From the NCBI RefSeq assembly GCF_026210795.1, contig NC_089433.1:806001-870000 (forward strand): a DNA stretch of 64,000 bases, read 5' to 3'. This document shows positions 1,144 through 58,258 of the stretch, one piece after another. Below the pieces are notes generated by a model. It searched no databases, was not told the DNA's origin, and worked only from the letters and a program-made list of their open reading frames with translations. The translations under genes and the position numbers were made by a program. Within the stretch, counting starts at the first letter, position 1. Each line of letters opens with the position of its first letter. The DNA comes from Rhizophagus irregularis (taxonomy: Eukaryota > Glomeromycota > Glomeromycetes > Glomerales > Glomeraceae).

Positions 1144-3338
1144 TTAAAAATTGTGTTCAAACTGGTTGGCTGAATTGCTAGTACCCCCAATACTTGCAAA
1201 TTCTTTTGTTGTAGTATCGTGTTGTTGTTCTTTATCGGAAAGTTGTCCAGTAAGTTTCGTAATCATATTGAACATATTGGTTAATAAACTATCTTGTTTT
1301 TCGACTTTTGATTCTAAGTTAAGCACTAAGTTATTGTCATCATTTTCACTTGAAGATGAGTCAGGTTTGGCACGCTTGTTATTATCATTAACTATTGGTA
1401 ATTTGTTAGGCTTGTGTTGTAGACCTTTACGATTATTATTATTTTTAAAGGTTTCTTTAATTGAATTAATTTCTTTTCTAACTATATCATTTTCTTTTCT
1501 AAATTCAGTAATCATTGCATTTAAAGTAGTGAGTTGTTTTTTAATATCTGATAAATCATTTTATGAAGATGTATGTTTGTTGTTATTTGGATCATGCATA
1601 GAGCCTCCTTTCCTAGTACCGCCTTGAATTGGGTTGTAGTTGTTGTCACTTATATCTTCTTCGTCACCCCAAGCTTGCATTTCTTCTTTACTAAAGGTGT
1701 AAGTATTGTTATTACGTTGTCGATTGATAATATTATTTTGATTTTAATGTCGTTGTCGATTAGTAGGATATCTATTTCCCTTAGTAGCATCGGCGTATGA
1801 ATTGAATCTAGATTTATTACGATTTTTAAACTGTTGGAGCAGTTGATTACGATTTAATTTATTTGAACGTTGTCGTAATTCCGTTTGACATTCCTTCGCT
1901 ACGTGTCCCGTATATCCGCATCTATGACAAGATTTGGTATCTAATGGGGACCATTCTAGTTGTTGACCTTCATATTCATATACATTATTGGTTGCAATAC
2001 TAAAATCTTCATCATTTTTAAAATATACAAAAGCATATTTCATAGGTTTATATGTCACGGGGTTGCGTGGAATAAAAATAGACGCAATGCTAGTTTTAGT
2101 AACCAATGGTTGTAAATCACGTGCACAAGTATTGAACGGTAAACCATTAATTTTTGCTGCAAATTGGAACCTTTCAGATTTTTTATCTTCAGATAGCAAA
2201 ACAGGTACCACTGAGAGACATTCTTTAAACGCCCATACACTCCATTGAGCGTAAAAAGGTTGTAAGCTAAGTTCATCTTTGTAGGTTATAAAAGCTTGTC
2301 TGTATATACCTTTAAGTCGTGTGGTAATGCCATCTTCTTCTAATTCTCCATATCGACTAAAAACAGCCTTCAAATTATAATTTTCCATATATAATGATAT
2401 ATTAAATACCTTGATAGTACGACTTTTACGAGTTTGAAAAAGTTGTTTTCATTTTTCTTGTAAATTTTCTACTTTTTTAAAAGAGTAAACGACATTATTT
2501 TCTTCTCTATCGGTTGCACTAGGCATTTTAAAAGTCATATTACATAAGCTATTTAAATCGACTTCGGTGTTGACTTTAATACTAATCACGTGACAGTATT
2601 TTGTTCTTGACTGGTATCATCAGTCAATCTAATCGGTTTTTTTTCTTCAAAAGTGGTAACGACGTCGATTTTTGATTTGATAATTTTAACAATATAATGA
2701 CAAAATTGTGTACTTTTAGGCGCCTCCGGAATCATACAAGTAGCTTTCCATGTGTTATGTTTAGACAAGACGATTGGTGAAAATTCGGCGTCAGCCATTT
2801 CTTTTTCAGGCAATTGATTATCAGCAGATAGATCATCAAAATGTGAGTCATCATGCGTCGATTGATCATCTTGATCTTGTGTGTTGATCTTTTATAGTAC
2901 ATCTGAATGATCTTCATTAGCTTTTCCTTTGTTCGCAGTTGGTGTTGCAGAGGGTGATTGTGTTACAATAGGATTGACATTTTTCGGGGTCTCGCCAGTT
3001 TTGGTTTTCTTTTTTTGCTGCGTATTTTGTGGATTATAAGCAATGAAAGGGTCGAGTTCCTGTCGTTTGAAAGTTGCTTGTTGTTTTCTATTATATGGTA
3101 ACCTTGCAGTAGCAGCTGCCTGGTGTTGTTGTTTCTTTTTCTTCTTGTTTTCTTGACGTAAGGTTGCTCTAGATTTAACTGTAGTAAACTCCTCGTCGTT
3201 AGAAGTGAAAGTAAAATTATTCAAAGTATCTTGTGCAGTAGAAGTTGTACCAACAACTCCTTCCATAGTTTCTCCCTGCTCCTGGTTGTCTATACCCTTC
3301 TGGGCAGCACTACGAGTAGTCCTAGTTAGGGCAGACAT
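1144..3338 (-). pseudogene. LINE ORF1, nucleic-acid-binding protein with CCHC knuckle, broken
   Basis: Open pieces at 3338-2892, 2813-2586, 2388-1744 and 1515-1144 join into one ORF1 of about 700 residues. The N-terminus (MSALTRTTRSAAQKG) is basic and Gln/Lys-rich. The middle has an RRM-like stretch (RTIKVFNISL then KYAFVYFKND). It is followed by a zinc knuckle CHRCGYTGHVAKEC, of CX2CX4HX4C form. The C-terminal part is acidic and probably coiled. Lesions are a TAA at 2892-2894, a frameshift near 2588, a TGA at 2449-2451, a TAA at 1744-1746 and a TAA at 1561-1563. The sequence between the listed open pieces remains protein-like in the continuing frame. In LINEs ORF1 coats the RNA and supports reverse transcription. 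This copy cannot produce the full protein. Confidence 0.75.
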
Positions 3339-4158
3339 ACCGTTACAGTATACGAAATAGGATTATAAAAAAAACGAAAATAAATTTTCTAAGTTATATC
3401 TTTGTAATAATACAAAAAAGTAGGAACGGGAGAGAGTTTTTTTTTTACATTGTCATTGTCATTTACATAAAGTTATATAAGATTAATCTGAGAGTTTTTT
3501 ACCAAAAAGGAAATTTTTTTATAAAAAGGGAAATGATTTTCAATTTCGAGGCAATTCAGCAGGTGTTTTAATAACAAATTGAGAAATGATTTCCATAGAA
3601 AATCTCGTGACAAAATTTATAATAAATTTAAAATAAATGATCAACAAATGATCAACAAAATCGTTACTAGTTTTATAAAAAACGCCCAATAATATCTTTT
3701 TATTGTTTTAACTTATTTAATTCTATTATTCATATTTATACAGATAATATTTATCACATAAAATAAATAAATAAATACAGATAATATTTACATATAATTA
3801 AACTAGCTAAATTCTTTATTTAAAAAATTATTTAATAATATAGGAAGTAAGTTATTTATTTAATTCCATTATTAAATATTTGCAAGTTATTTAACCCTCA
3901 TATCAAATAATTCGATAGATTTTTTTGTGCCAAAATGATGATCATATCCTGGAATGCATTAGATCATTGACAATCATATCTTAAAATGAAAAATTATGAA
4001 AAATTGTGAAAAATTGTGCGGTTTTATGGATTAGTTAGTGCATTTTTATGGATTAGATTTTGCATTTGATCTAACCATAAGTCCAAATTTGGATGAAAAA
4101 GTCTCAGATAATTTTATATATATGTTAGTATAGCGAAGCTAACGTTTTTTTTTTGATT

Positions 4159-4640
4159 GAAAAAGGAAATAACTTTCCATTTTTGCTTTAATTTTTTCTC
4201 TTTTCGTAAAAAACTTTTTTTTTGTTGAAAAAAAAAATCAAAAAAATTTATAAAAATAAAAAAGGAAATACCCTACCATTTTTGATTTACTTTTTTCTCT
4301 TTTTGTTAAAAATTTTTTTTTCATGAAAAAAAAAATCAAAAAAAAATTATAAAAATGAAAAAAGGAAATGGGTTTCCTTTTTAATTTTTTTTTCTCCTTT
4401 TGTAAAAATTTTTTTTCATAAAAAAATCAAAAAAATTTATAAGATGAAAAAGGAAATGGGTTTCCTTTTTAATTTATTTTTTTTCGTTGAAAAAAAAAAT
4501 TAAAAAAAATCATAAAAAATATAAAGGAAATGGTTTTCCATTTTGATCTATTTTTTTCTCTTTTCGTAAAAAATTTATATTTATTCCAAAAAAAATTTTT
4601 ATCAAAGAATTCATAAAATTTTAAAAAGGAAAAATACTTT
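4159..4640. repeat. Imperfect tandem repeat, about five units of 75-100 bp
   Basis: Each unit begins with a purine run ending in AAAGGAAAT, then a short C-containing core (e.g. CTTTCCATTTT). A T-rich run with TTTTCTCTTTTCGT follows, and then an A-run leading to TTTATAAAA. Units start near 4159, 4258, 4357, 4446 and 4523. Because the purine run of each unit faces the pyrimidine run of the next, a transcript could fold repeatedly. The array lies next to a GTTAG...CTAAC palindrome near 4126-4145. Confidence 0.6.
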
Positions 4641-10555: not shown

Positions 10556-10760
10556 CTATTATTGGTAGTGGCTTGTTCTTGGAAAAATTTTGCTAACAAC
10601 CCAAAATTTTCTTAATACATTGTACAATATATTTTATATCTAAAATACAATTAGTCTTACAATTAATTATTTGCAATATATTGTAACAATGAATTTTGCA
10701 ATTAATAATGATTTTATAATTAAACTAAGCCTTATTACTGAAGACTCCTCTTTTTGTCAC

Positions 10761-10910
10761 TATAAATAGGCCAAGGGAGCAGCAATGGCTATAGGCACTA
10801 ATGGGTCTACATAAGGTTAAACAGGTGTTGTATGTACAATACGTGTATCATGTGATCAACATTAATTCATTAATGATGACTGCTGCCGCAGCTTTAGCCG
10901 CTGCAAATCA
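10761..10910 (+). promoter_or_regulatory. TATA box and first exon of the locus split by a retroelement
   Basis: TATAAATA at 10761-10768 is followed by a G/C-richer leader and an ATG pair at 10873-10878 that opens MMTAAAALAAANQ. The exon is cut at 10910 by the retroelement. It resumes at 13550 with TTAGAAGTTTAA, so the uninterrupted reading would have been the short peptide MMTAAAALAAANQLEV. A strong donor (GTAAATAC) follows at 13576. It could be the start of a non-coding transcript, a short leader peptide, or a truncated signal-like exon of the lysozyme remnant downstream. Confidence 0.4.
10893..10910 (+). repeat. Target-site duplication, left copy (18 bp)
   Basis: TTTAGCCGCTGCAAATCA occurs here and again at 13532-13549, immediately after a run of TAAA repeats. 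The duplicated bases are part of the interrupted exon. Confidence 0.9.
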
Positions 10911-11052
10911 GGTTAGTTTTCCGCAGTAATTTTGCGACGTTTAGTTTTTTTTTAGTTTCTATTTGAAACGCCAAAGGGTGAGAGGCCTTAACAGGCGCTT
11001 CGGACTTATACGAGGTTCTTAGTTCTCTTTATATCCTATGTTATAAAGGAAT

Positions 11053-11568
11053 ATGTCTTCTACACCTCTTATCGAACTAGACTGGTCTTCTACTCCACAA
11101 CATTCTTATGTTCAACTCGGTGACCCTACACCACCTGAAAATAACTCAGATGATATATCATATAATACCGAGCGGCCAGTAATATTTTCCACTAAGGATA
11201 TCCTTTCTCTTGATATTGATGATATTTATCCTTATACGCACTCAACTCTTCATTTTGAAGACAACGAAACGGAATATATATATGATGACGAAGACTACTT
11301 TCAACAGCTACTACAGGCTCATTTAAACGCTGAAATAGAAGAAGGCAGCGTACTTAGAGATGACAAACCTCTCATTGATAACACTCCTTTAACTCCCATA
11401 CAGGAGATTAATCCTATACCACCTTTAGATACTGCGCCTCTTTTAGATAATTTACCCATAGTCGAGAACATTAATCCTATACCATTGGATACTGCGCCTC
11501 TCTTAGAAATTTTACCCATGGTTGAGAACAAAAATACTTTGTTGGTCTCCCGAAAAATTCTCACGTGA
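11053..11568 (+). CDS. Retroelement ORF1, acidic protein with internal duplication
   Basis: ATG at 11053 opens a 171-residue acidic, proline-rich protein with no recognised domain. Residues about 117-160 contain a tandem duplication of about 21 residues; both copies read INPIPPLDTAPLL-like then LP(I/M)VEN. The first 110 residues are rich in Asp, Glu and Tyr (FEDNETEYIYDDEDYF). The frame ends in TGA at 11566-11568, which overlaps the start of the next frame as GTGA. It could be a separate ORF1 or the N-terminal half of a single protein whose frame was shifted. I do not know its function. The acidic nature contrasts with the very basic downstream frame, so the two parts could bind each other (inference). 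Confidence 0.6.
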   Translation: MSSTPLIELDWSSTPQHSYVQLGDPTPPENNSDDISYNTERPVIFSTKDILSLDIDDIYPYTHSTLHFEDNETEYIYDDEDYFQQLLQAHLNAEIEEGSVLRDDKPLIDNTPLTPIQEINPIPPLDTAPLLDNLPIVENINPIPLDTAPLLEILPMVENKNTLLVSRKILT

Positions 11569-13163
11569 CTACGCCAAAATGTTCCGGTTATAACAAGAAT
11601 TATGAAATTCATCGATCTGGATCATCACCTCCGTTTTCGTCAACTTTCGAATATTCTTTTAGTACAAAGAAAATAAACCCATACGAGGTTAGAGACACAC
11701 GTGGAAGTGGCACTCTGTATAACACTAAAAAAGGAAGATATTTCCTTATCGAGTTAGATAATTCCTCACATGTAGATCTTAGAAAGAAAAATTTTTTCAA
11801 CGTCTGCACCAATGACATTCAACTGTCTGATGATCATCATAGGATCTTCAATTCAAACTGCAAAAAGCTCAATCTGAATTACCTTATAGGGACATATCTG
11901 ACCTTTGTCTTTACTTTAAACAAACAATTCTCTCCTGCTATTGTAGATAAATATTTTCATCATTTACGCCAACTGCTATTAGACAAAATATTGGCAGTTA
12001 AAAATAGAACTTCTTCCATATCAAATAAAAATAGACAAACAAAGACCTTTATTCGATTTTCTTCCGGGCCCCACGTGATTTACCTGGGGTACTACTTTGC
12101 CTGCGGATTTACAGAAAATAATAAATGTTGTCAACAACCAGCTGCTGTCGTACTTTCACACAATCGACTAAACTGTAATAAACATCTCCCTAAATTCATA
12201 ATACATGGGAGATTTCGAACTGGTATTTTACCTCAAAACCCTAGTTTTCTTGCCCATAATCGATATCAGACTCATAATCACGCAAAAGAAGTTCATTCAA
12301 CACGACTTGGTATCTCATATAACGTTATCACTCGAAGATACAATGAATGGAGAGGAAAACAAGATTTTTATCTTAAAAATGTTATGGAACCACTATCTAC
12401 TAAAACGAAGAAAGGTGTGAACACCACGCGCACGTTCTACAAAGAATATTATAACTTTGAGCTTGACGCTAACCGTACACAACAACAAATCAAGCGGTGG
12501 AATCGCCTAAAATTTTCGAACTTTAAAGCGGAAAGATCCTTGGGTCAAGTCAGACCCTTCCTAATCAATGAACACTCACATGTGTACAAAAAAATTCAAC
12601 ATGCAGTTGAACGTTTTCCTCCATATAGTAGAAAAAGCAAATTGGAAATTGAAAGCGATAAGATTATTCGCAAAAGGACCAAAAATTGGAAACGCCGTAC
12701 CAAAATGCGAAACAAGAAAAGGAAACCTTTACCTCCTTTACCCGATAATTTTACTGGGAAAGCCATATCCTATTACTTTAATACACATAATATTAATCTC
12801 GCTGCGTATAAAGTGCGACGACGCTATAATTTATCCGGCATCCCTGATTATAAATTTGGTTACCTTAAAGCGGTTAGACGTTATGGCAAATATCAAAATC
12901 GTTTACGTTCACCCCCACCTCCAATAGTTGAGGACAAGACCATTGATACTAATACTCAACCTGAAGCTACTTTTTTTTCAGATAAACTTACTTTGAATTC
13001 TCATAAAGCACATTTTGCTCGTACTACTCCTACTGGACATCAATATCCGTCTACGCCCGAACCTGATCCTCTCAAATCGATCAAAGATGGTGATGAAAGA
13101 CCCATCAGGAAACCAAGAAAACGAAGAATTATACTTCCGCCCACACCTGGGCATGACCAATAA
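11565..13163 (+). CDS. Retroelement ORF2, basic protein with a Cys/His cluster, unknown family
   Basis: A 532-residue open frame begins at GTG 11565 with no early ATG, so translation would need reinitiation at the GTGA overlap, a -1 shift, or a repaired ATG. About residues 185-215 hold ACGFTENNKCCQQPA then NCNKH, a C-X7-CC...C-X2-H pattern that could bind zinc. The second half is strongly basic, with KNWKRRTKMRNKKRKPLPPLP, AYKVRRRYNLSG and a C-terminal RPIRKPRKRRIILPP that looks like a nuclear signal. There are no endonuclease, reverse transcriptase, integrase or RNase H motifs. The long frame without stops in an otherwise decayed region suggests youth or selection. I cannot assign it to a known family; nucleic-acid binding is an inference from charge and the Cys/His cluster. 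Confidence 0.6.
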   Translation: MTTPKCSGYNKNYEIHRSGSSPPFSSTFEYSFSTKKINPYEVRDTRGSGTLYNTKKGRYFLIELDNSSHVDLRKKNFFNVCTNDIQLSDDHHRIFNSNCKKLNLNYLIGTYLTFVFTLNKQFSPAIVDKYFHHLRQLLLDKILAVKNRTSSISNKNRQTKTFIRFSSGPHVIYLGYYFACGFTENNKCCQQPAAVVLSHNRLNCNKHLPKFIIHGRFRTGILPQNPSFLAHNRYQTHNHAKEVHSTRLGISYNVITRRYNEWRGKQDFYLKNVMEPLSTKTKKGVNTTRTFYKEYYNFELDANRTQQQIKRWNRLKFSNFKAERSLGQVRPFLINEHSHVYKKIQHAVERFPPYSRKSKLEIESDKIIRKRTKNWKRRTKMRNKKRKPLPPLPDNFTGKAISYYFNTHNINLAAYKVRRRYNLSGIPDYKFGYLKAVRRYGKYQNRLRSPPPPIVEDKTIDTNTQPEATFFSDKLTLNSHKAHFARTTPTGHQYPSTPEPDPLKSIKDGDERPIRKPRKRRIILPPTPGHDQ

Positions 13164-13549: not shown

Positions 13550-13604
13550 ATTAGAAGTTTAAAAAAGATCGTACGGTAAATACTTTTTTTTAAACTTTTT
13601 TTTT

Positions 13605-13740
13605 AAAACTTCCTTCCATTCCTTCTTTCCCTTTTTCCTTTTTCCTCTTTCCCTCTTATTCCCTTGCTCATTCCCTTTCTCTCACTTCCTTTCCTCATTC
13701 TTCTCCGCCCTTCCCCTCGGTTCTCTTCTCTTGCCCGACT
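13605..13740 (+). repeat. Pyrimidine-rich block before intron-like array 1
   Basis: CTTCC, CCCTTT and TTCCTTT motifs dominate. The block lies directly after the donor at 13576 and ends in CCGACTTAG, a good 3' splice site. It could act as the pyrimidine tract of a longer first intron (13576-13742). Confidence 0.5.
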
Positions 13741-13742
13741 TA

Positions 13743-14880
13743 GATTTCGGTAGGAGTTAGATCTTTTCAAATTTACTTTTAACAAAACGCTTTACTAATA
13801 TTTCTATCCTTATTTCCGGCTCTTTGGACACGCAGAATTTCGGTAAGAAAATCTGAATTTTTTTTAATTTAATATAAGCGAAACGTTTTACTAACGTTTC
13901 AATTTAAAATTTTTTTTAGATGACCAGGTCCTTTTGGTGCATAGAATTTCGGTAGAGGATTCTGGAAATATATTTTCTTAGCGATTGGACGCGTACTTAT
14001 AACAACGAAACTTTTATTAACGATTTCGTTTTTATTATTTTTTAGGCGCGCGAATTTCGGTAAGGAAAGGTTTTTTTTCTCATTATTATTTAATGAAACG
14101 TTTTACTAAGTTTCAACTCTTCTCTTTTTTTAGGACAAGTTCTGATTTTAAAGCAACGGGATATTGGGTAAGTTTTTGAAAATATTTTTTGAAAACTAAA
14201 CTTTATTATTTTAATGAACTTTACTAACAGTTCATTTTTTTTATTTTGTAGGTGGCCGTTTAACAAAATGTTTCGATGATTTTGATTTTCTTTTGTAGAC
14301 AGACGTCTGGACGCATGAAAAGTTTAGTAGGAAGTTTTTTAATTAATTTATTATCTTTAACGAAACGTTACTAACGTTTCATTATTTTCTTTTTTTTAGA
14401 TGACTAAGACCTTGGACATGTAAATTTTGGTAACGGATCCAGAAAAAATTTTTATTTAAATTTATTCTATCGAAACGTTTACTAATGTTTCGATTTACTC
14501 TCTTTTTATATATATATATATATTTAAACGATTAGGATGTAGATTTTTGGTTTCCGGATACGCGGGAATTGGTAAGGGTTTATTTATTGTTTTTTTTTAT
14601 TTTATTCTAATGAATTATTACTAAATGTTTGTTATTTTTTCTTTTTTTAGGTGGTAAAGAATTTGTTATGCAAAAATATTATCTGTATAAATAACGAAAA
14701 TATTTATAAACTCAAATTATACCTCGTACTTCAAGAAAGTTTGTAAGCAAAGTAGATTTAGCAAAGGCGTGTCTCTAATTTAAACAGCCTGGACGTAAGT
14801 TTTTTTTATACAGAAATCAGGAAATTTTAATTTAACGAAACTTTTACTAATAAAGTTTCGTTTTCTTCCTTTTTAGACGG
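13743..14880 (+). repeat. Tandem array of intron-like units (array 1)
   Basis: At least seven units each hold a 5' splice site (GTAAG, GTAGG or GTAAC), a branch box of TACTAAC type, and a T-rich run ending in TAG. Plausible intron spans are 13843-13919, 13952-14045, 14060-14133, 14168-14251, 14327-14399, 14572-14650 and 14795-14876, or 73-94 nt. That equals the real introns of the protein genes here. The exon-like pieces are mostly 14-50 nt, often start ATGAC(C/T) or ACGG, and often end GAATTTCG or a variant just before GT. They share no reading frame. In most units the branch box lies in the loop of a hairpin. The array could be a spliced non-coding transcript or a satellite grown from one intron. 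Confidence 0.7.
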
Positions 14881-15365
14881 CTGTTTTTGGATAATTGGAT
14901 GCGTAGGACTTCAAACGTGGAATTAGCTCGGATTCCATATAATGACGGCAGAAGACATGGTCCATATGAATCACATCATTTACTACGACACCAGGGAATC
15001 AAAAAAACTATTGGTTATGGTCATATTTGTCATGTATTTAGCTAGATTTGAAAAATACGTTGAGTCACTCACTCGGATTAAACTAAATCCTGATCAGTTC
15101 TCTGCCTTGTGATCATTTAGCTTCAACCTTGGCTGTGGTACTTATCAAAATCCACGTTGGTAGGAAGCTTAAGTCTGGAGACACCAAAGGTGTTTCCTTG
15201 GAGTTTGGGAAATGGTTTTATGGTGGTGGCAAAAAATTGCCCGGTTTTGTGAGACGCCGTAATGCCAAAAGGGATTTGTTTTGCAAGGGACATAATAAAT
15301 TATTTATTGATCAAACCAATAAATTTTTCACTTATTACTGCTTAGTTATTTGGCAACTATATTAA
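14880..15365 (+). pseudogene. Phage-type lysozyme (GH24) remnant
   Basis: Three frames together spell a GH24 muramidase, an enzyme that cleaves bacterial peptidoglycan. YYDTRESKKTIGYGHICHV (from 14977) is the active-site strand region. RIKLNPDQFSAL then SFSFNLGCGTYQN (about 15076-15150) is the middle helix. KLKSGDTKGVSLEFGKW, then GGGKKLPGFVRRRNAKRDLF (15160-15290), is the C-terminal lobe. Stops (e.g. TAG after HVFS, TGA after FSAL) and frameshifts break it. The family is typical of phages and bacteria, so lateral transfer into the fungus is likely (inference). The catalytic Glu region upstream of YYDT is not clearly visible. It lies straight after the last intron-like unit and may be the 3' exon of the same locus. 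Confidence 0.8.
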
Positions 15366-17130: not shown

Positions 17131-17827
17131 TTGTCTGGAGCGAAGCGAAGGACAATATATGTCTACACACTATGAGAAAAAAATCGATCACATGAATTTC
17201 TTTGCTAACAACTAAAATTTTACGTAATGTATTGTACGATACTTGTACAAGTATTGTACAATATATTTAAATTCTATAATGAATTGTACAATAGTTTTGG
17301 ATTATAAATTGTCAAGTATATATTAATACACAAGCACTTGTAATTTATATAGCCACAATTATATTTTAATAAATCATCTTACGATTTTAAACAATTTTTT
17401 TTACTTATACATTACACAATATATATTACAATGGGTTGTTATACATATAACCATATAACTACTATGTTGTTATTTTTCATTGACAGCTAATAGTAAGTAT
17501 TTTAACCTGATTAACCACGCACTTTAAGATGATGAATTACTTCTCCTTAATTTGGCTCATTAAGGAGGTTCCTAACATAATGTTAGTGTTTCATTCACTT
17601 ATCCGCTGGCGGTCAGACTAAAATATTCCTTACTAATAACTTTTTGCGCACTCTTTCTTACTTTTCACACCTATAGTATAAAATTTTTTAATATAATGTT
17701 TGATTCATAATTAAATACAAATTTTTATGCACAACATGCAGTAAATACCTCTGATTTTTCAAGTATTAAATTATATTACACCGTGAATTACATCATGAAT
17801 TACATAGAAAACTGAATACGAGTTACT

Positions 17828-18634
17828 TCAATGTCTTCTGCCAAATCCTCCACGTCCATGTCCATAAATATATCCACATTCATGTTCGTGTTCGTGTCCA
17901 CGTCCATTTCTATAGCTTGTAGAAGCTTCCAGTGCATTAAAATTTATTTCATTGGTGAAATTGGTTTGATTATAGTGAGGAAGTATGAGATCATGTGTGA
18001 TATAATCAAGTGTCTTGACCTCATTTAAAGCTGAAGCATTTGTAAGAAGTGGTTCATCTACACATTTTAAAATGTTGGTCATACAGTTCTTTTATACGTA
18101 TAGTATTCTGAATTTTTATTATGTGATGCAGGATCACCAGTAGAAATGATATTGTTAAATGAAGTACTGCGAGATTGTGATTCAGATAATCCATCTCTTA
18201 AGTTAATATTAGGTTTGTAATACAAAAGGCGTTTTCTGATTTATCAGTTACATTTGAATTTGACTTTTTGATAGGTGATTTGTCCGATTCCTCAAGAGAT
18301 TCATTATTAAAAGAGGTACTGTTATGAGGAGTACTAATATCCATAATAAATTCATCAAGAGGTGGATCATCAAGTAGATCATTGCGTGCATTATCTGCAT
18401 CATCAAAACTTTCACCAGACAGGTTGGACGAATTTCCTTTTTTTTTCCTGCTCAGGTTATTAAAGTTAGATCATCATATAAAATCATGGAAAAGAAATTA
18501 ATAAATTAATATCTTACTGGATTCCTCAATAGTACTGTTTGATATTCTTTGACGTTCATGCATAGTTTTATTTTTACTCGTAGTATTGTTTGTTTTATTA
18601 CTGTTGTATGATTTTGAATGAGTTATTCTTACCA
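17828..18634 (-). pseudogene. Unknown hydrophilic protein with His/Gly-rich C-terminus, frameshifted
   Basis: Reading from 18634, ATG opens MVRITHSKSYNSNKTNN and runs to a donor (GTAAGATATT) near 18525. After the acceptor around 18430-18448, the second exon reads NSSNLSGESFDDADNARNDL and on through acidic, serine-rich sequence. A shift near 18215 leads into INLRDGLSESQSRSTSFNN, and another near 18082 into MTNILKCVDEP. The end at 17828 is GRGHEHEHECGYIYGHGRGG, a histidine- and glycine-rich tail. The frameshifts may be real lesions or unrecognised short introns. It is the only protein-like sequence in the 4.8-kb inverted-repeat element. I do not recognise it. Confidence 0.4.
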
Positions 18635-19084
18635 TTGTTAGAAAACAAATGCAAAGTTGTAAAAATAGGGAGTAAAAAAAAAAAATAAAATAAAATAATT
18701 TTTTAACAAGGCGAATTTTAATAGACTTTATAAATAAAATTATTAAACTAATTTAGACTATTTTCATACCGCAGTCACTTTAACAACCAATTTTTATTAA
18801 TAATATATATAATTGTTAATAAATATAATTAATAAGATCTGTGTGATGTGACCTGCATGATATATTTTATGTAAGATGATGCCAACTGATACTAGTTACT
18901 TTAATTTGTATTTATTTATTTCATATATTATATCATTGCATATTCGTAAAAAAAAGTAAAAAAAAAAAAATAAATAATTATTTCTACACTATTTTCTATT
19001 TTTTTTCAGTTTGCGGATCTTTTTTTTAAGCTTTTTTAACTTCTTTTTATTCATTTTAACGAAGCTTATCTATTAATTGGTTAT

Positions 19085-20365
19085 ATTTTATTTTTTCAGC
19101 AAAAATTTTCCCTTTTCTTTTTTTCCATTTCTCTTATTTCTATTTCTCTATTTCCTTATTATTTCCTATTTTCCTCCCACTTGTACTTGATTTAAAAAAA
19201 GGTTGAAAAGCACATCATGCAAGATAATGAAATGTTTCTATGTTTTGATTTTTTTTTTACAGTTTCTGGATGCGACATTTTGGTAAGTTTGTCAAGATTT
19301 ATTTTTTTGTTTTATTTTAATGAATGATTTTTAATGGCTTGTTTCTTAATTTTTTTAGATGGTTTGGTTCTATGGATACTTAAACATATAGGAATATGGT
19401 AGGAAGATTTTTTCATAATTATTTATTTTACAATACAAAATGCTTCTATCTATTTTTATTTTTTTCTAGACGGCCAGGCCTTTGAACGCATGAAATTTTA
19501 GTAGGAGGACTTAAATTTTTTTTTAGTTGAGGTCTTTGGGACGCATAGTAGTAAAATCAGAAAATATTCTTTTTTAACATTTTGATTTTACTCTTTTTTT
19601 AGACACGTAGCATTTGGTAGGAGATTACAAGAATTATTTATTTTAAATTTATTTCTTTAAATGAGACATTTCTAACATTTCAATTTTTTTTCATTTTGTA
19701 GAGGCCGGTTCTTAAGTTATTTGAACACGTGAAAAATTCGATATGAAGAGTTCTATTCTTTAAGTAATTAATTCTTTTAACGAAATGTTTCTAGCATTTC
19801 AATTTTTTCATTTTTGTAGATGATCAATTCTTTAAGGTACTTGGATGCATGAAAAATTCTATGAGGAGATTTTTATTTTTATTTTTTTAACAAAATGATC
19901 AATAATATTTCATTTATTTTGTTTTGCAGATGATTGGTTTCTTGGAATACTCGGATATGTGAAAAAGTCAGTAAGGGAATTGATATAAATAACTCTTTCA
20001 AATGAAATAATTCTAACGTTTTACTTTTTCCTTCTTTTTGTAGACGACCAGTCTTCTGGTATCTGAACGCGTGAGAATTCGGTAAGGAGAACTGAGGGGA
20101 TTTTTTTTCTCACTTTAAATCAAATAATGAAATGTTTACTGCTGACAGGTTGTTTTTTTTAGTTAATATCAGCATATTTCACATGTATCATGTGATTAAA
20201 ATTAATAAATATGATGAACAACTTTTTTTTTTAACTTTTACCACTGTACCTTTAATTTCAAATCCTTTATCATTTTATCCTATTTCATTTCCTTTTCTCT
20301 TATCCTTTCCTTTGTCCTTTCTTTCCCTCTTCCTGTCCTTTTTTCCTGTACTTTCCATTTAAATA
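19085..20365 (+). repeat. Pyrimidine-rich blocks associated with array 2
   Basis: Two C/T blocks, 19090-19190 and 20260-20360, contain TTCCATTT, CCTTTCC and TTTCCCTCTTCC motifs. Each is followed by a run of intron-like units, which repeats the arrangement seen at 13.6 kb. Confidence 0.45.
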
Positions 20366-21365
20366 TTCTTTATATTTAAGTGGTTCTCTCAATCTTTCTG
20401 ACACTACATTTCAGTAAGTTCATATTTTTTTTTTCTTTAATTGTTTTTATTGAATAGTTTCTTAGTTCTTTTTTTCTTTTTTTTTTTAGACAACTAGGTA
20501 TGCAGTCTTTGGTCTTTAGGCTAATTCATAGGATTTTGGTAGGAATTTTATTTTTCTTTTAAATTATTCTTTTAACGAAACATTTACTAACATTTCGATT
20601 TTTACTTTTTTTAGGTGGATTTCTTTAGGACTTGATATTTCCCTACAAGCTCTTTCTTTCTTAACAAAGGTTTAGCAATTAAACATGTGTTTAAAAATTT
20701 AGAGTATGTTAAAAATATTGATAACAAGATATTATTTTATGGTTTTGTATGTATTTTTATTGAAGTTATAAAAAAAAATGATATTCCATTTTTTTTAGTA
20801 CTGAATTATTTTTATTGAAACATAATACTGACATTTTGATTTCCTTTTTTTAGATGGCTTAATTCTTGGACACGTGGGAATTTGGTAGAAAATGATTATT
20901 TTTTAATTATTTTTTTAACAAAACGTTTGCTAACATTTTGTTTTTTCTCTTTTTTAGATGGCTTCTTCTTTGGATATCTTTAGAGATGCAGATTACAGTG
21001 TGTTTAATTTTAATGAAATGCTAACCTATTAATGAGATAGATCTTTAGTTCTTTGAATGTTTAGATGCAGAATTTTGGTAAGATATATTTTTTTTTACTA
21101 AGTTATTTACTTTAACAAACAAATACTAACTTTTTTTTTTCTTTTTTTTAGACAATTGGCTCCTTTAGACGCGAACTTTGTAAGTTATTCAACTTTTTTC
21201 TTCAAATTTTTTCTTTTAGCGAATAGTCACTAACATTCATCATCTTTCCTTTTCAGTTGGTTGGCTTGAACGCATGGAAAATTTGGTGAGACTCTGTTCT
21301 AATTATGCATTTCAATGAAATATTTTACAACATTTCAATTTACTCTTTTTTTTAGATGATCCAGG
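19261..21365 (+). repeat. Tandem array of intron-like units (array 2), more decayed
   Basis: About a dozen or more units follow the plan of array 1. Spans supported by both splice sites include 19283-19358, 19399-19469 and 19617-19701. Others lack a clean donor, e.g. at 19740 where ATATGA replaces GTAAG. Exon-like pieces are again 30-45 nt and recognisably related to those of array 1: most begin ATGA, ATGG or ACGG, contain a (T)GGA(C/T)(A/G)C core, and end AATTTTG or AAATTCG. Branch boxes such as TTCTAACATT and TTACTAACATT are flanked by shorter inverted arms. A long interruption lies at 20130-20400. Same family, older copy. Confidence 0.6.
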
Positions 21366-21976
21366 TCTCTAAATGTTTGGGGATTTGGGATTTGGGGATT
21401 TGGGTTAAAATCATAGGCTTTCCCACCAGCTGGCAAGGTGTATGAAATTTCTTTAATTCACAAAGAAAGCCTTGCTAAAGTCATCTTTAGCATACGTCTA
21501 GTAATACATTGCCTTAATTGAGCGTGGCTACGAGAGTTTATGATTCTTAAATTGCCTTATTCCTATTCATTACACACATATATATCTTATAATTAATTAC
21601 ACAATTTATTTTTATTATTTAAATTTACAATACATGTATAACAAATCGTTTTATAATAAATTTTTAATATTTATCTTACGATCTATTTACAATTTCCATT
21701 TTATAATTAATTTTACAACGGTTTGCCACTATATATTTTTGTAATCAATCTTACTACATATCAATAAGTTAATATCAAAATTTGTAATAGAAGCATATTG
21801 TACGATGTCCCTACAAACCCAATAACAAGTATCTTATCATGGTTTGTACACAATTTATTGTGACAATAATTTTACAATACATTTATAAAATTTTAGGTTG
21901 TTAGCAAAGTTCTCTGTCCGCCACGTGATCGTCGCCCAATGAAATCACAAATTTTAGTTTTTCGCTCCAGACTTAC

Positions 21977-49680: not shown

Positions 49681-52600
49681 TTAATAGTATGGTAAAATAC
49701 TAGATAATTTATCTTTTGCCTCTCTAATTCCATTTTTTGAAGCCTTTCTATACCAATAAATTGCTTTGTCAACATTATTAACAATACCTATACCATCATA
49801 ATAGCATTTCCCTACATAATACTGTGCTTTTGCAATTCCACCTTCAGCTGATTTCAAGTACCATTCAAATGCCTTCACATTATTTATGTTTGTCCCTGCA
49901 CCATTTGAATAACAACATCCCAATTTATACTGTGCAACTATATTTCCATTTTCAGCTGACTTTAAATACCATTCAAATGCTATTGTCTTGTCATTATATG
50001 TTCCTATACCATTTTCATGGCAAAATCCTAAATTACATTGGCCTAAAGCACACCCTGCATTTGCTGATTTCGTGTACCATTCAAATGCTTTTGCTTCATT
50101 TTTAGCAGTTCCCTTACCATACTGAAAATAATGACCTAAATTACATTGTGCTGTTGCATGTCCATTTTCTGATGATTTTAAATACCATTCAAATGCTTTT
50201 ATTTCATCCTCCAAAGTACCAATACCATAGTCATAACAATATCCTAATTTGAACTGTCCACTAGGATTTCCTGCAATAGCTGATTTCATATACCATTCAA
50301 ATGCCTTTATTTCATTAATCTCTGTTCCTATACCATTTTCATAGCAAAATCCTAAATTACAATACCCTGAAATACACCCTGCATTAACCGATTTAGTATA
50401 CCATTCAAATGCTTTTATCTCATCCTTAGCAATACCTATACCATAATTATAACAATATCCTAATTTGTATTGCCCATTAACATTTCCTGCAATAGCTGAT
50501 TTCATATACCATTTACATGCTTTTGTTTTGTTAATCTCTGTTCCTATACCATTTTCATAGCAAAATCCTAAATTATATTGTCCACTAGCACATCCTGCAT
50601 TTGCTGATTTCGTGTACCATTCAAATGCTTTTGCTTCATCTTTAGCAGTTCCTTTACCATATTGAAAATAATGACCTAAATTACTTTGTGCTGTTACATA
50701 TCCATTTTCTGCTGATTTTAAATACCATTCAAATGATTTTATTTCATCCTTAATAGAATCTATACCACATTCATAAAAATACCCTAATTTGAATTGTCCA
50801 ATAGCATTTCCTCCATTAGCTGATTTCATAAACCATTCAAATGCTTTTGTTTTGTTAATCTCTGTTCCTATACCATTTTCATAGCAAAATCCTAAATTAT
50901 ATTGCCCATTAGCACATCCTGTATTAGCTGAATTTGTATACCATTCAAATACTTTTGCTTTATTTTCAGCAGTTACATTGCCATACTGAAAATAATGACT
51001 TAAATCACTTTGTGCCATTGCACATCCATTTTCTGCTGATTTTAAATACCATTCAAATGCTTTTATTTCATCTTTAGTAGTACCTATACCAACGTCATAG
51101 CAATATCCTAGTTTATATTGGCCATCAGCAAATCCTTTATTAGCTGATTTTGTATACCATTCAAATGCTTTTGTTTTATCAATCTTTGTTCCTATACAAT
51201 TTTCATAGCAAAATCCTAAATTATATTGTCCTAAAGCACATTCTGCATTAGCTGATTTTGTGTACCACTCAAATGCTTTTATTTTATTTTCAGCAGTTCC
51301 TTTACCATACTTAAAATAATGGCCTAAATTATTTTGTGCTATTGCATGTCCATTTTCTGCTGATTTTAAATACCATTCAAATGCTTTTATTTCATTTTTT
51401 TCAGTTCCTATACCATGGTCATAAAAATATCCTAATTTATATTGAACATTAGTATTTCCCGCAATTGCTGATTTAACATACCATTTAAATGCTTCTGTTT
51501 TGTTAATTTCTGTTCCTATACCCTTTTCATGGTAAAATCCTAAATTATAGTATCCTAAAGCACACCCTGCATCAGATGATTTTTTATACCATTCAAATGC
51601 TTTTATTTCATCCTTAATAGTACCTATACCATGATCATAACAACATCCCAATTTATATTGACCAATAATGTATCCTGCATTAGCTGATTTTGTATACCAT
51701 TCAAATGCTCTTGTTTTGTTAATCTCTGTCCCTTTACCATTTTCATAGCAAAATCCTAAATTATATTGTCCATTAGCATACCCTGCAATAGCTGATTTCA
51801 TATACCATTCAAATGCTTTTATTTCATCCTTAGAAGTACCTATACCATGATCATAACAACGTCCTAATTTATATTGACCATCAATGTATCCTGCATTAGC
51901 TGATTTTGCATACCATTTAAATGCTTTTATTTTGTTAATCTCTGTCCCTTTACCATTTTCATAGCAAAGTCCTAAATTATATTGTCCACTAGCACATCCT
52001 GCATAAGCTGATTTTGTGTACCATTCGAATGCTTTTGCTTCATTTTTAGCAGTTCCTTTACCATATTGAAAACAATAACCTAAATTACTTTGTGCCATTG
52101 CATATCCATTTTCTGCTGATTTCAAATACCATTTAAATGCTTTTATTTCATTCTTAACAGTGCCTATGCTATAGTCATAAAAATATCCTAATTTGTATTG
52201 ACCATTAGCATATCCTGCATTAGCCGATTTTGTATACCATTCAAATGCTTTTGTTTTGTTAATTTCTGTTCCTATAACATTTTCATAACAATATCCTAAA
52301 TTATAGTATCCTAAAGAACACCCTGCATTAGCTGATTTTGTATACCATTCAAATGCTTTTGTTTCATTTTTAGTCGTCCCTTTACCATACTGAAAATAAT
52401 GACCTAAATTATTTTGTGCCATTGCATGTCCATTTTCTGCTGATTTTAAATACCATTCAAAAGCTTTTATCTCGTCCTTTTCAGTTCCTATACCATGGTC
52501 ATAACAATATCCTAATTTAAATTGACCATCAGTATATCCTGTATGAGCTGATCTTGTATACCATTCAAATGCTTTTATTTCATTTTTACTTATTCCTTTA

Positions 52601-53325
52601 CCATATTGATAACAATACCCCACATGAAATAATGCTATTAAATTATCTGCTATTGCAAGCTTCAAAAGCTTTTCGAATTCTTCCTTTTCTTTTTTATCAT
52701 TTGCAATTAGGTATTCGCTTTGTTCAGATTTTAAAAACCATTCAAATGCTTTTTCTTCATTTTTTTGTATTTCTACTCCATCCATATAATGAATTGCTAA
52801 ATTATATTGGGCGTCTAGATCACCATTTTTAGCTAATTTTACAAGTTTCATTAATCCATTCTGATTATTATTTCCCTTGCTTTGGTAATAATTAAAACCT
52901 TCTATATCTATAATAATATCTTTATAATAAAATAATGATAATAAATATTTTCCAATAATTATATTTTTATTTTTTAACAAATTAAAATTTTCATTTGAAA
53001 GATCATTTTCAATTTTTTCATTATCAATAACCAATAAATAAAAATCCAACGCTTTTTCTTTATCTAAATTACAACCAATACCATGTTGATAAAAAAATCC
53101 TATTAAACTTGTGAACCAAAATTTACTTTCTTTATGATTTTCCATCAAATTAAGAATATCTATATAGTCATTATAATTATTAATTTTAATTTCATTTTTT
53201 ATCCCAATAAAATTTTTTTCAAAATTATTAAAATCATTTGTTTCAATAATTTTATTATAAAAATTATTTAATAAATTTTTTAAGAAATTCTCATTATCAC
53301 CTTGCGAAATGTAGTTGTTATTCAT
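49681..53325 (-). CDS. Giant Sel1-repeat protein, 1214 residues
   Basis: One uninterrupted frame from ATG 53325. The N-terminal 130 residues are an Asn/Lys-rich helical region (MNNNYISQGDNENFLKNLLN). About 30 Sel1 repeats of 36 residues follow to the C-terminus. Most match the consensus LG.CY..GIGT....KAFEWY.KSA..G...Q. Three repeat types recur in order: A (YKLGYCYDHGIGT...DEIKAFEWYLKSAEN), B (NLGHYFQYGKGTAKNEAKAF) and C (YNLGFCYENGIGTEINKTKA). The A-B-C unit of 108 residues (324 bp) has been amplified. Such long alpha-solenoids act as scaffolds (family knowledge); the partner is unknown. There is no signal peptide or membrane segment. The last repeat (KAIYWYRKASKNG) resembles the ends of the other Sel1 proteins here. 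The frame is intact in spite of the repeats, which implies selection or recent growth. Confidence 0.93.
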   Translation of the reverse strand: MNNNYISQGDNENFLKNLLNNFYNKIIETNDFNNFEKNFIGIKNEIKINNYNDYIDILNLMENHKESKFWFTSLIGFFYQHGIGCNLDKEKALDFYLLVIDNEKIENDLSNENFNLLKNKNIIIGKYLLSLFYYKDIIIDIEGFNYYQSKGNNNQNGLMKLVKLAKNGDLDAQYNLAIHYMDGVEIQKNEEKAFEWFLKSEQSEYLIANDKKEKEEFEKLLKLAIADNLIALFHVGYCYQYGKGISKNEIKAFEWYTRSAHTGYTDGQFKLGYCYDHGIGTEKDEIKAFEWYLKSAENGHAMAQNNLGHYFQYGKGTTKNETKAFEWYTKSANAGCSLGYYNLGYCYENVIGTEINKTKAFEWYTKSANAGYANGQYKLGYFYDYSIGTVKNEIKAFKWYLKSAENGYAMAQSNLGYCFQYGKGTAKNEAKAFEWYTKSAYAGCASGQYNLGLCYENGKGTEINKIKAFKWYAKSANAGYIDGQYKLGRCYDHGIGTSKDEIKAFEWYMKSAIAGYANGQYNLGFCYENGKGTEINKTRAFEWYTKSANAGYIIGQYKLGCCYDHGIGTIKDEIKAFEWYKKSSDAGCALGYYNLGFYHEKGIGTEINKTEAFKWYVKSAIAGNTNVQYKLGYFYDHGIGTEKNEIKAFEWYLKSAENGHAIAQNNLGHYFKYGKGTAENKIKAFEWYTKSANAECALGQYNLGFCYENCIGTKIDKTKAFEWYTKSANKGFADGQYKLGYCYDVGIGTTKDEIKAFEWYLKSAENGCAMAQSDLSHYFQYGNVTAENKAKVFEWYTNSANTGCANGQYNLGFCYENGIGTEINKTKAFEWFMKSANGGNAIGQFKLGYFYECGIDSIKDEIKSFEWYLKSAENGYVTAQSNLGHYFQYGKGTAKDEAKAFEWYTKSANAGCASGQYNLGFCYENGIGTEINKTKACKWYMKSAIAGNVNGQYKLGYCYNYGIGIAKDEIKAFEWYTKSVNAGCISGYCNLGFCYENGIGTEINEIKAFEWYMKSAIAGNPSGQFKLGYCYDYGIGTLEDEIKAFEWYLKSSENGHATAQCNLGHYFQYGKGTAKNEAKAFEWYTKSANAGCALGQCNLGFCHENGIGTYNDKTIAFEWYLKSAENGNIVAQYKLGCCYSNGAGTNINNVKAFEWYLKSAEGGIAKAQYYVGKCYYDGIGIVNNVDKAIYWYRKASKNGIREAKDKLSSILPYY

Positions 53326-53395
53326 GGTTATTTTTTAATAATTAGTTTGTTGATATTGTTTATTGTTAAATATTTATATTTTTTTGTTTGGAGCG

Positions 53396-57663: not shown

Positions 57664-58258
57664 CATTGATCAGGGGGAAAAGGGAGGACGAAAGGGAAAG
57701 GGAAAACTAAAGGGAAGGGGAGAACGAAAGGGAAAGAAGGGAACGAAAGGGAAAGGGGATAACGAGAGGGAAAGGGGATAACGAGAGGGAAAGGGGATAA
57801 CGAAAGGGAAAGGGGAGTATGAAAGGGAAAGGGGATAACGAAGGGATAACGAAGGGGAAAGGGGATAACGAAGGGAAAGGGAAGATGAAGGGGAAAAAAG
57901 GGAACGAAAGGGAAAGGAAAGAACGAAGGGAAAAGGGGAACGAAAGGGAAAGGAGAGAACGAAGGGGAAAGGGGAGAACGAAAGGGAAAGGGAGGACGAA
58001 GGGGAAAGGGGATAACGAAAGGGAAAGGGAAGAACGAAGGGGAAAGGGGAAGACGAAGGGGAAAGGGGATAACGAAGGGAAAGGGAAAACGAAGGGGAAA
58101 GAAGGGAACGAAAGGGAAAGGAAAGAACGAAGGGAAAAGGAGAACGAAAGGGAAAGGAGAGAACGAAGGGAAAAGGGAAGACGAAGGGGAGAACGAAAGG
58201 GAAAGGGGATAACGAAGGGAGAACGAAAGGGAAAGGGGAGAACGAAGGGGGAAGGAAA
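57664..58258. repeat. GA-rich minisatellite, about 590 bp
   Basis: Units of about 15-25 bp built from GAACGAAGGG, GAAAGGG, AAAGGGGATAACGA and AAGGGAAAGG. The plus strand is almost purely purine, except for one C (and sometimes a T) in each ACGA or ATAACGA. Long frames on both strands (Arg/Glu/Gly/Lys-rich on plus, Pro/Phe/Ser/Leu-rich on minus) arise because the repeat contains no stop codons. CTGATCA/TGATCAG inverted copies lie just to the left (57638 and 57666). Confidence 0.85.

Follow-up and report, generated by a model that had tools for sequence, protein, structure and literature searches.

The window is a 64,000-nt stretch (C5:806001-870000) of the Rhizophagus irregularis genome, which was searched as a whole (146.7 Mb, 32 contigs). 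Reading of the sequence revealed eight consecutive GT...CTAA...AG units, all on one strand, at 13843-14876. They lie in what appears to be a copy of a DNA transposon. Its left terminal inverted repeat and end region, TTTTGCTAACAACCCAAAATTTTC, occupy 10588-10844 on the plus strand, as judged from the end pattern and from a match to a copy at locus L032. The left end of the latter starts CTTTGCTAACAACCC and aligned with the 10588 end over 40 bp at 95% and then over 185 bp at 73%. A gene follows on the plus strand (10801-13163), which consists of upstream exons and a 545-aa ORF (11526-13163). The array is adjoined upstream by a CT-rich, promoter-like tract on the same strand (13577-13742), which may act as the promoter; positions 13577-13722 were 90% identical to L032. 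The array-bearing copy lacks a right end, and other DNA begins at about 14914. Just beyond this broken side, at 14987-15266, is a Phage_lysozyme (PF00959) pseudogene in two frames, with relatives on C4 and C16.

The units, all on the plus strand, are given from the donor G to the acceptor G. They contain the signals of U2-type spliceosomal introns (GT donor, branch box, pyrimidine run and AG at normal spacing). Unit 1 (13843-13919, 77 nt) carries a branch hairpin, GAAACGTT-TTACT-AACGTTTC, and its acceptor is used by the published gene model P0001. The same model uses Units 2 to 4 in full. Unit 2 (13952-14045, 94 nt) and Unit 3 (14060-14133, 74 nt) did not fold above their shuffles (z 0.00 and -0.11, respectively), whereas Unit 4 (14168-14251, 84 nt) has both a hairpin near the 5' splice site and a branch hairpin, AATGAACT-TTACTAAC-AGTTCATT. 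Branch hairpins are also present in Unit 5 (14327-14399, 73 nt; GAAACGTT-ACT-AACGTTTC), in Unit 6 (14430-14535, 106 nt; ATCGAAACGTT-TACT-AATGTTTCGAT), the acceptor of which is weak, and in Unit 8 (14795-14876, 82 nt; AACGAAACTTT-TACTAAT-AAAGTTTCGTT). The predicted fold of Unit 7 (14572-14650, 79 nt) contained none. Ahead of Unit 1 is a decayed unit (13750-13800, plus strand), which has retained a GTAGG donor and TTTACTAAT and has lost its acceptor AG. This AG was still present in the aligned copies on C26 and C6.

The original prediction of seven or more such units was exceeded by this count of eight plus a decayed ninth. Its span of 73-94 nt held for seven of the eight and failed for the 106-nt Unit 6. 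The exons between Units 1 and 8 are 32, 14, 34, 75, 30, 36 and 144 nt long, so that five of the seven fell in the predicted range of 14-50 nt, and those of 75 and 144 nt did not. For comparison with the introns of intact genes, which these spans were said to equal, P0001 implies three ordinary introns in the window, of about 70-140 nt with approximate boundaries.

A strict pattern (GTRNG, a branch box and a pyrimidine-rich YAG, 60-115 nt) was used to count units in the arrays and in 200 dinucleotide shuffles of each. The window array contained five strict units on the forward strand and none on the reverse, against a mean of 0.12 in the shuffles (sd 0.35, maximum 2). Eight of the nine arrays tested exceeded every one of their own shuffles (4-12 forward units versus shuffle maxima of 2-3). 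The exception was the L038 array, with one strict forward unit against a shuffle maximum of 2. No strict unit was found on the reverse strand of any of the nine.

Two published gene models use the junctions predicted from these signals, which, together with the shuffle controls, supported the description of the units as complete intron-like units in tandem. P0001 (GLOIN_2v1769145) uses the acceptor at 13919 and the introns 13952-14045, 14060-14133 and 14168-14251. The last of its exons upstream of the array stops at the GT at 13090, and its last 30 residues are encoded in the array, over exons 13920-13951, 14046-14059, 14134-14167 and 14252 onward, which are joined exactly at the predicted sites. 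The presence of a 14-nt exon (14046-14059) in a published model is notable. The second model, P0038 (OCT59_000045; 96 aa), takes its first 21 residues from exons of the array at L051 with the predicted joins. It was found at E 0.049 by 21 identical residues, the comparison covering these 21, as the other 75 lie outside the sequence stretch compared. A third model, P0009, which also bears the OCT59 prefix, comes from an annotation made with Nanopore RNA. It represents the window gene, stops where the ORF does, at about 13160, and skips the array. We take P0009 and P0038 to belong to the annotation of PMC10234402, for which Illumina reads were given to BRAKER2 and Nanopore reads to PASA. Removal of the array units by splicing would agree with two of these models and disagree with P0009.

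The peptides in P0001 and P0038 could mean that the array is what remains, mostly broken, of a gene with many micro-exons that formerly encoded a small element protein. The L035 array also begins with an ATG exon, and by eye a 42-nt exon could continue its frame. On the other hand, six spliced arrays or array pieces had longest stop-free stretches of 57-88 aa, the exon lengths had no common phase, and a shared-word search among proteins of similar length with P0038 returned only P0038 itself of 12 candidates. The frames at L031 and L036 gave no Pfam match at E <= 0.1. With no long frame in the spliced arrays, a hidden protein was rejected, and we regard a micro-exon gene as improbable. As predicted, the exons share no reading frame, since splicing left no continuous open frame. 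The broken frames are compatible with the spliced non-coding RNA that had been suggested, although short peptides are taken from the exons in the two models. The multi-lariat producer that had also been suggested would be a consequence of splicing. Rfam returned no match at the gathering score within the 64-kb window (for example, to a snoRNA host gene), which removed a known structured RNA from consideration, and no tRNA or tmRNA was found in the window.

The array is one of many. It gave at least 77 blastn matches genome-wide, counting its own; four other long copies, on C26, C28, C6 and C3, were 79-83% identical to it. The L051 array gave at least 202; by a hand count, the matches listed fell into 35 places, where they often followed one another at intervals of about 120 bp. 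Both totals are lower bounds because the best candidates alone were scored. One 20-base version of the branch hairpin, GAAACGTTTNCTAACGTTTC, had 496 matches in the genome with no more than one mismatch, and its reversed control had none. Some of these matches had a loop of T only and no branch box. Eight places were picked by hand from the perfect matches among 100 listed, a small and partly related sample. Seven of them lay in arrays by eye, including L051 and L057, which were 94% copies of each other. The eighth, L056, showed a single unit. The repeating unit is an exon plus an intron, and arrays of it occur genome-wide in R. irregularis.

In fungi and algae, introners, or introner-like elements, are spliceosomal introns present in one genome in many similar copies that form stable secondary structures. 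The arrays might be such introns, moving as units and piled up here by chance, and the many similar, structured introns in this one fungal genome are a trait of that kind. However, introners are near-identical introns placed singly in many unrelated host genes. Seven of the eight sampled places were arrays instead of lone introns of ordinary genes, the exon is part of the repeating unit, and the R. irregularis units stand in tandem inside transposons. We regard an origin as introner-like elements as improbable.

The carriers have recognizable ends. The same pair, CTTTGCTAACAA...TTGTTAGCAAAG, was found in four copies, namely L050 (1064-5453), L043 (1555-5725), L032 (3335-6926) and a second element in the window (17200-21909, plus strand). 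Outside these ends were 2-bp duplications of TA, AA, TG and TT, respectively, although a 2-bp match could arise by chance in AT-rich DNA in these four copies. The end pattern of this family had 42 matches in the genome, with or without array neighbors. A second family, at L038, has CATCGGGAAATTT ends with TA outside, seen in one copy with both ends. L038 also contains at 3780-4640, by eye, a CT-rich, promoter-like block repeated about three times ahead of its array. Ends are known for these two array families only; those of the L035 and L036 arrays were looked for and not found. The elements are 3.6-4.7 kb in size, and the spliceable array makes up very roughly one-third to one-half of the body.

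The element at 17200-21909 is intact, with TT on both sides, and belongs to the same family as the array-bearing copy. It contains a second array (about 19283-21355, plus strand) with seven strict forward units and no reverse unit, against 0.26 in shuffles. This array is more decayed than that at 13843-14876, and its branch hairpins are near background. The array is directed toward the right end in L050, L043 and the intact window element, and in the opposite direction in L032, which indicates that the elements have no fixed array orientation. Gene-like frames on the minus strand, apparently with one intron, lie in the left half of the intact element (17800-18650). The one Pfam match in this half, KH_KRR1_1st (E 0.036), was under the family cut-off. 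Pfam had no accepted match, and no transposase, in the frames of L031, L036 and window 17200-18700. From the matching ends and the 2-bp duplications, the carriers are classed as putative non-autonomous DNA transposons with terminal inverted repeats.

The gene at 10801-13163 is missing between the matching stretches of L032, and we treat it for this reason as an insertion or capture. A direct repeat, TTTAGCCGCTGCAAATCA, bounds the gene region at about 10893 and 13532. The 545-aa ORF was considered as a transposase and rejected, having no Pfam hit, 85 matches in the genome and no counterpart in the L032 copy. Of its 37 database relatives, 35 were labeled R. irregularis, one 'hypothetical protein', and one had no label. 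It belongs to a large R. irregularis gene family without a Pfam match. On C7, matches to this ORF at 1723156 and 1727970 flank an array at 1724440-1726064.

The branch box is flanked by arms that pair. At 101 array sites, chosen without regard to pairing and so an unselected test of the hairpin, the arms scored 14.50 in their native combination and 11.42 when swapped between units (sd 0.28, z 11.0). At 56 control sites outside the arrays, chosen in the same way and defined by their signals without being proven introns, the scores were 10.18 versus 9.18 (z 2.7). Ordinary introns were rejected as the origin of the hairpin signal on this comparison. A stem search with a narrower loop, in which several clear hairpins scored low, gave 12.14 native versus 9.26. 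The signal was uneven among arrays, with scores near the control level of 10.2 in the second window array (10.7), L043 (11.0), L049 (10.8) and L041 (11.2). The stems also covaried. A gapless set of 25 units gave a covariation of 0.342, compared with 0.152 when shuffled and at most 0.119 when slid, and 25 cells with changes on both sides versus 9.4. Values as high occurred in none of 500 shuffles for four of the five measures, and in 35 of 500 for pairs with a change on both sides. This set was picked for stem score in one register from 114 sites, which inflates its paired percentage.

Hairpins were also found at the donor. The donor hairpin score was 18.5 (N=54) and fell to 12.6 when the intron part was shuffled. 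Among the 18 strongest, 12 began at +3, one at +4, one at +5 and two at +15 (counted from the donor as called); the remaining two paired exon with intron across the donor. The +3 hairpin pairs the AAGT (AAGU) of the donor, the expected target of U1, and could thus hinder splicing. Four introns of L035 folded at z -5.5 to -7.2, and the eight of the window array at z -2.5 to 0.0. Overall, L035, L044 and L051 clearly show both hairpins, the window array shows them in part, and in other arrays the form is weak. The hairpins could draw the donor close to the branch, slow U1 or U2, or stabilize lariats. Alternatively, repair of inverted repeats at the DNA level could have produced them incidentally.

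In an alignment of the units, the acceptor AG columns reached about 0.8 and 0.7, and some exon columns were equally high. This alignment was therefore replaced by a test on palindromes, which were sought across 18 arrays or array pieces with splice signals ignored. Among palindromes with a branch-like box, a T-rich YAG lay downstream in 30 of 42 on the array strand and in none on the other, a result that the T-richness of the arrays on one strand favors. The corresponding numbers for palindromes without the box were 12 and one of 33; for the 21 palindromes elsewhere in the window, they were 0 and 2.

L035 contains a 1.25-kb tract of hairpin repeats (3262-4508) between a donor and an acceptor, with few AGs; a similar tract is present in L044. 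The L035 tract (1246 bp) has four AGs versus 32.6 expected, an 8-fold depletion, and 47 GAs. That of L044 was less extreme (12 versus 31.9). Such depletion resembles that of a long intron that has to avoid false acceptors, and the L035 tract looks like one giant intron of hairpins.

Between dispersed copies, identity was 0.907 at donors, 0.914 at branch boxes and 0.908 at acceptors, compared with 0.876 in the rest of the intron and 0.864 outside. Splice positions, whose lack of conservation in other copies would have counted against the original prediction, were in many cases kept in the copies on C26, C28 and C6. Some were lost, and the excess over background was slight. The dispersed copies evolve nearly neutrally, with splice-site identity barely above background. 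Set against the palindrome and AG results, we interpreted this as constraint in an active lineage and decay in its copies.

The near-neutral conservation would suit a plain tandem satellite inside transposons, whose splice-like signals were simply part of the ancestral unit. Template switching in DNA would perfect its imperfect inverted repeats into hairpins, and covariation would then need no selection on RNA. Many hairpins of L035 and L044 do lie in the exon-free tract, and hairpins were seen by eye within some exons. Evidence against this reading is the T-rich YAG following palindromes with the branch box on the array strand alone, the AG depletion in L035 (less marked in L044), the use of the sites by two gene models and the 5' stems that begin exactly at +3 in 12 of the strongest 18. 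We consider this reading unlikely.

The arrays are, in our view, probably an exon-intron satellite that is carried by non-autonomous DNA transposons of R. irregularis and kept spliceable while these are active. Each repeat, about 110-125 bp long, joins an exon of about 30 nt to a complete spliceosomal intron of about 75-105 nt. The repeats arose by head-to-tail duplication, and in the window the CT-rich promoter-like stretch precedes them. The element's own promoter would drive transcription through the array, and the units, presumably every one of them, would be spliced out one at a time. In the better-preserved arrays these introns carry a hairpin from +3 of the 5' splice site and a second at the TACTAAC branch box. 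Because the units would remove themselves, the array could grow with the mature RNA hardly longer, and the units could spread. Units that still splice would be favored as long as the lineage of the element is active, and dispersed copies would decay afterwards. The satellite derived from one intron that had been proposed comes close to this, except that the unit is an exon plus an intron and the carriers resemble DNA transposons. In a stronger form, which we offer as a tentative possibility, the satellite would be a new kind of selfish repeat. Paired hairpins at the 5' splice site and branch box, selected in the RNA, would fold co-transcriptionally and control removal, each element transcript would release at least ten structured lariats, and the short mature RNA would escape silencing.

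Introns are usually regarded as passengers of genes. Here, the thing multiplied seems to be a complete exon-intron unit, in mobile DNA and at dozens of places in one genome. If so, intron gain, tandem repeats and transposons would be linked, and splicing would be part of a repeat's way of spreading. Satellites and tandem repeats occur inside transposons, and the arrays share with them the head-to-tail copies and a unit of about 120 bp; they differ in that the unit has a full set of splice signals, with covarying hairpins, on one strand. Stwintrons, some of them similar to one another in sequence, are multiplied fungal introns as well, nested at one position (PMC12403724, PMC8469720), whereas the R. 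irregularis introns are consecutive with exons between them. The carriers resemble non-autonomous transposons with terminal inverted repeats and MITEs in their inverted ends, short target duplication and absence of a transposase in the scanned frames. At 3.6-4.7 kb and with a spliceable array in the body, however, they exceed the MITE size range of 50 bp-1 kb used in PMC11075540, a curated transposon survey of R. irregularis.

No earlier description of such a repeat was found in the open-licence papers searched, and exon-intron arrays in transposons seem to be an undescribed kind of repeat. The terms intron, non-autonomous, tandem, non-coding and hairpin are absent from the main text of PMC11075540, and its abstract gives two-thirds of R. 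irregularis transposable elements as unclassified. The arrays may account for part of the unclassified repeats. They also provide numerous diverged, naturally occurring versions of a structured intron, for which existing RNA data could show what pairing does at the branch box and the 5' splice site.

Two other repeats were noted in the window. A 1217-aa ORF at 49681-53334 contains a 108-bp tandem repeat, which by eye we take to be Sel1-like. A purine-rich tandem repeat, GGGAAAGGGGAGAACGAAA, is present in 31 copies at 57675-58255.
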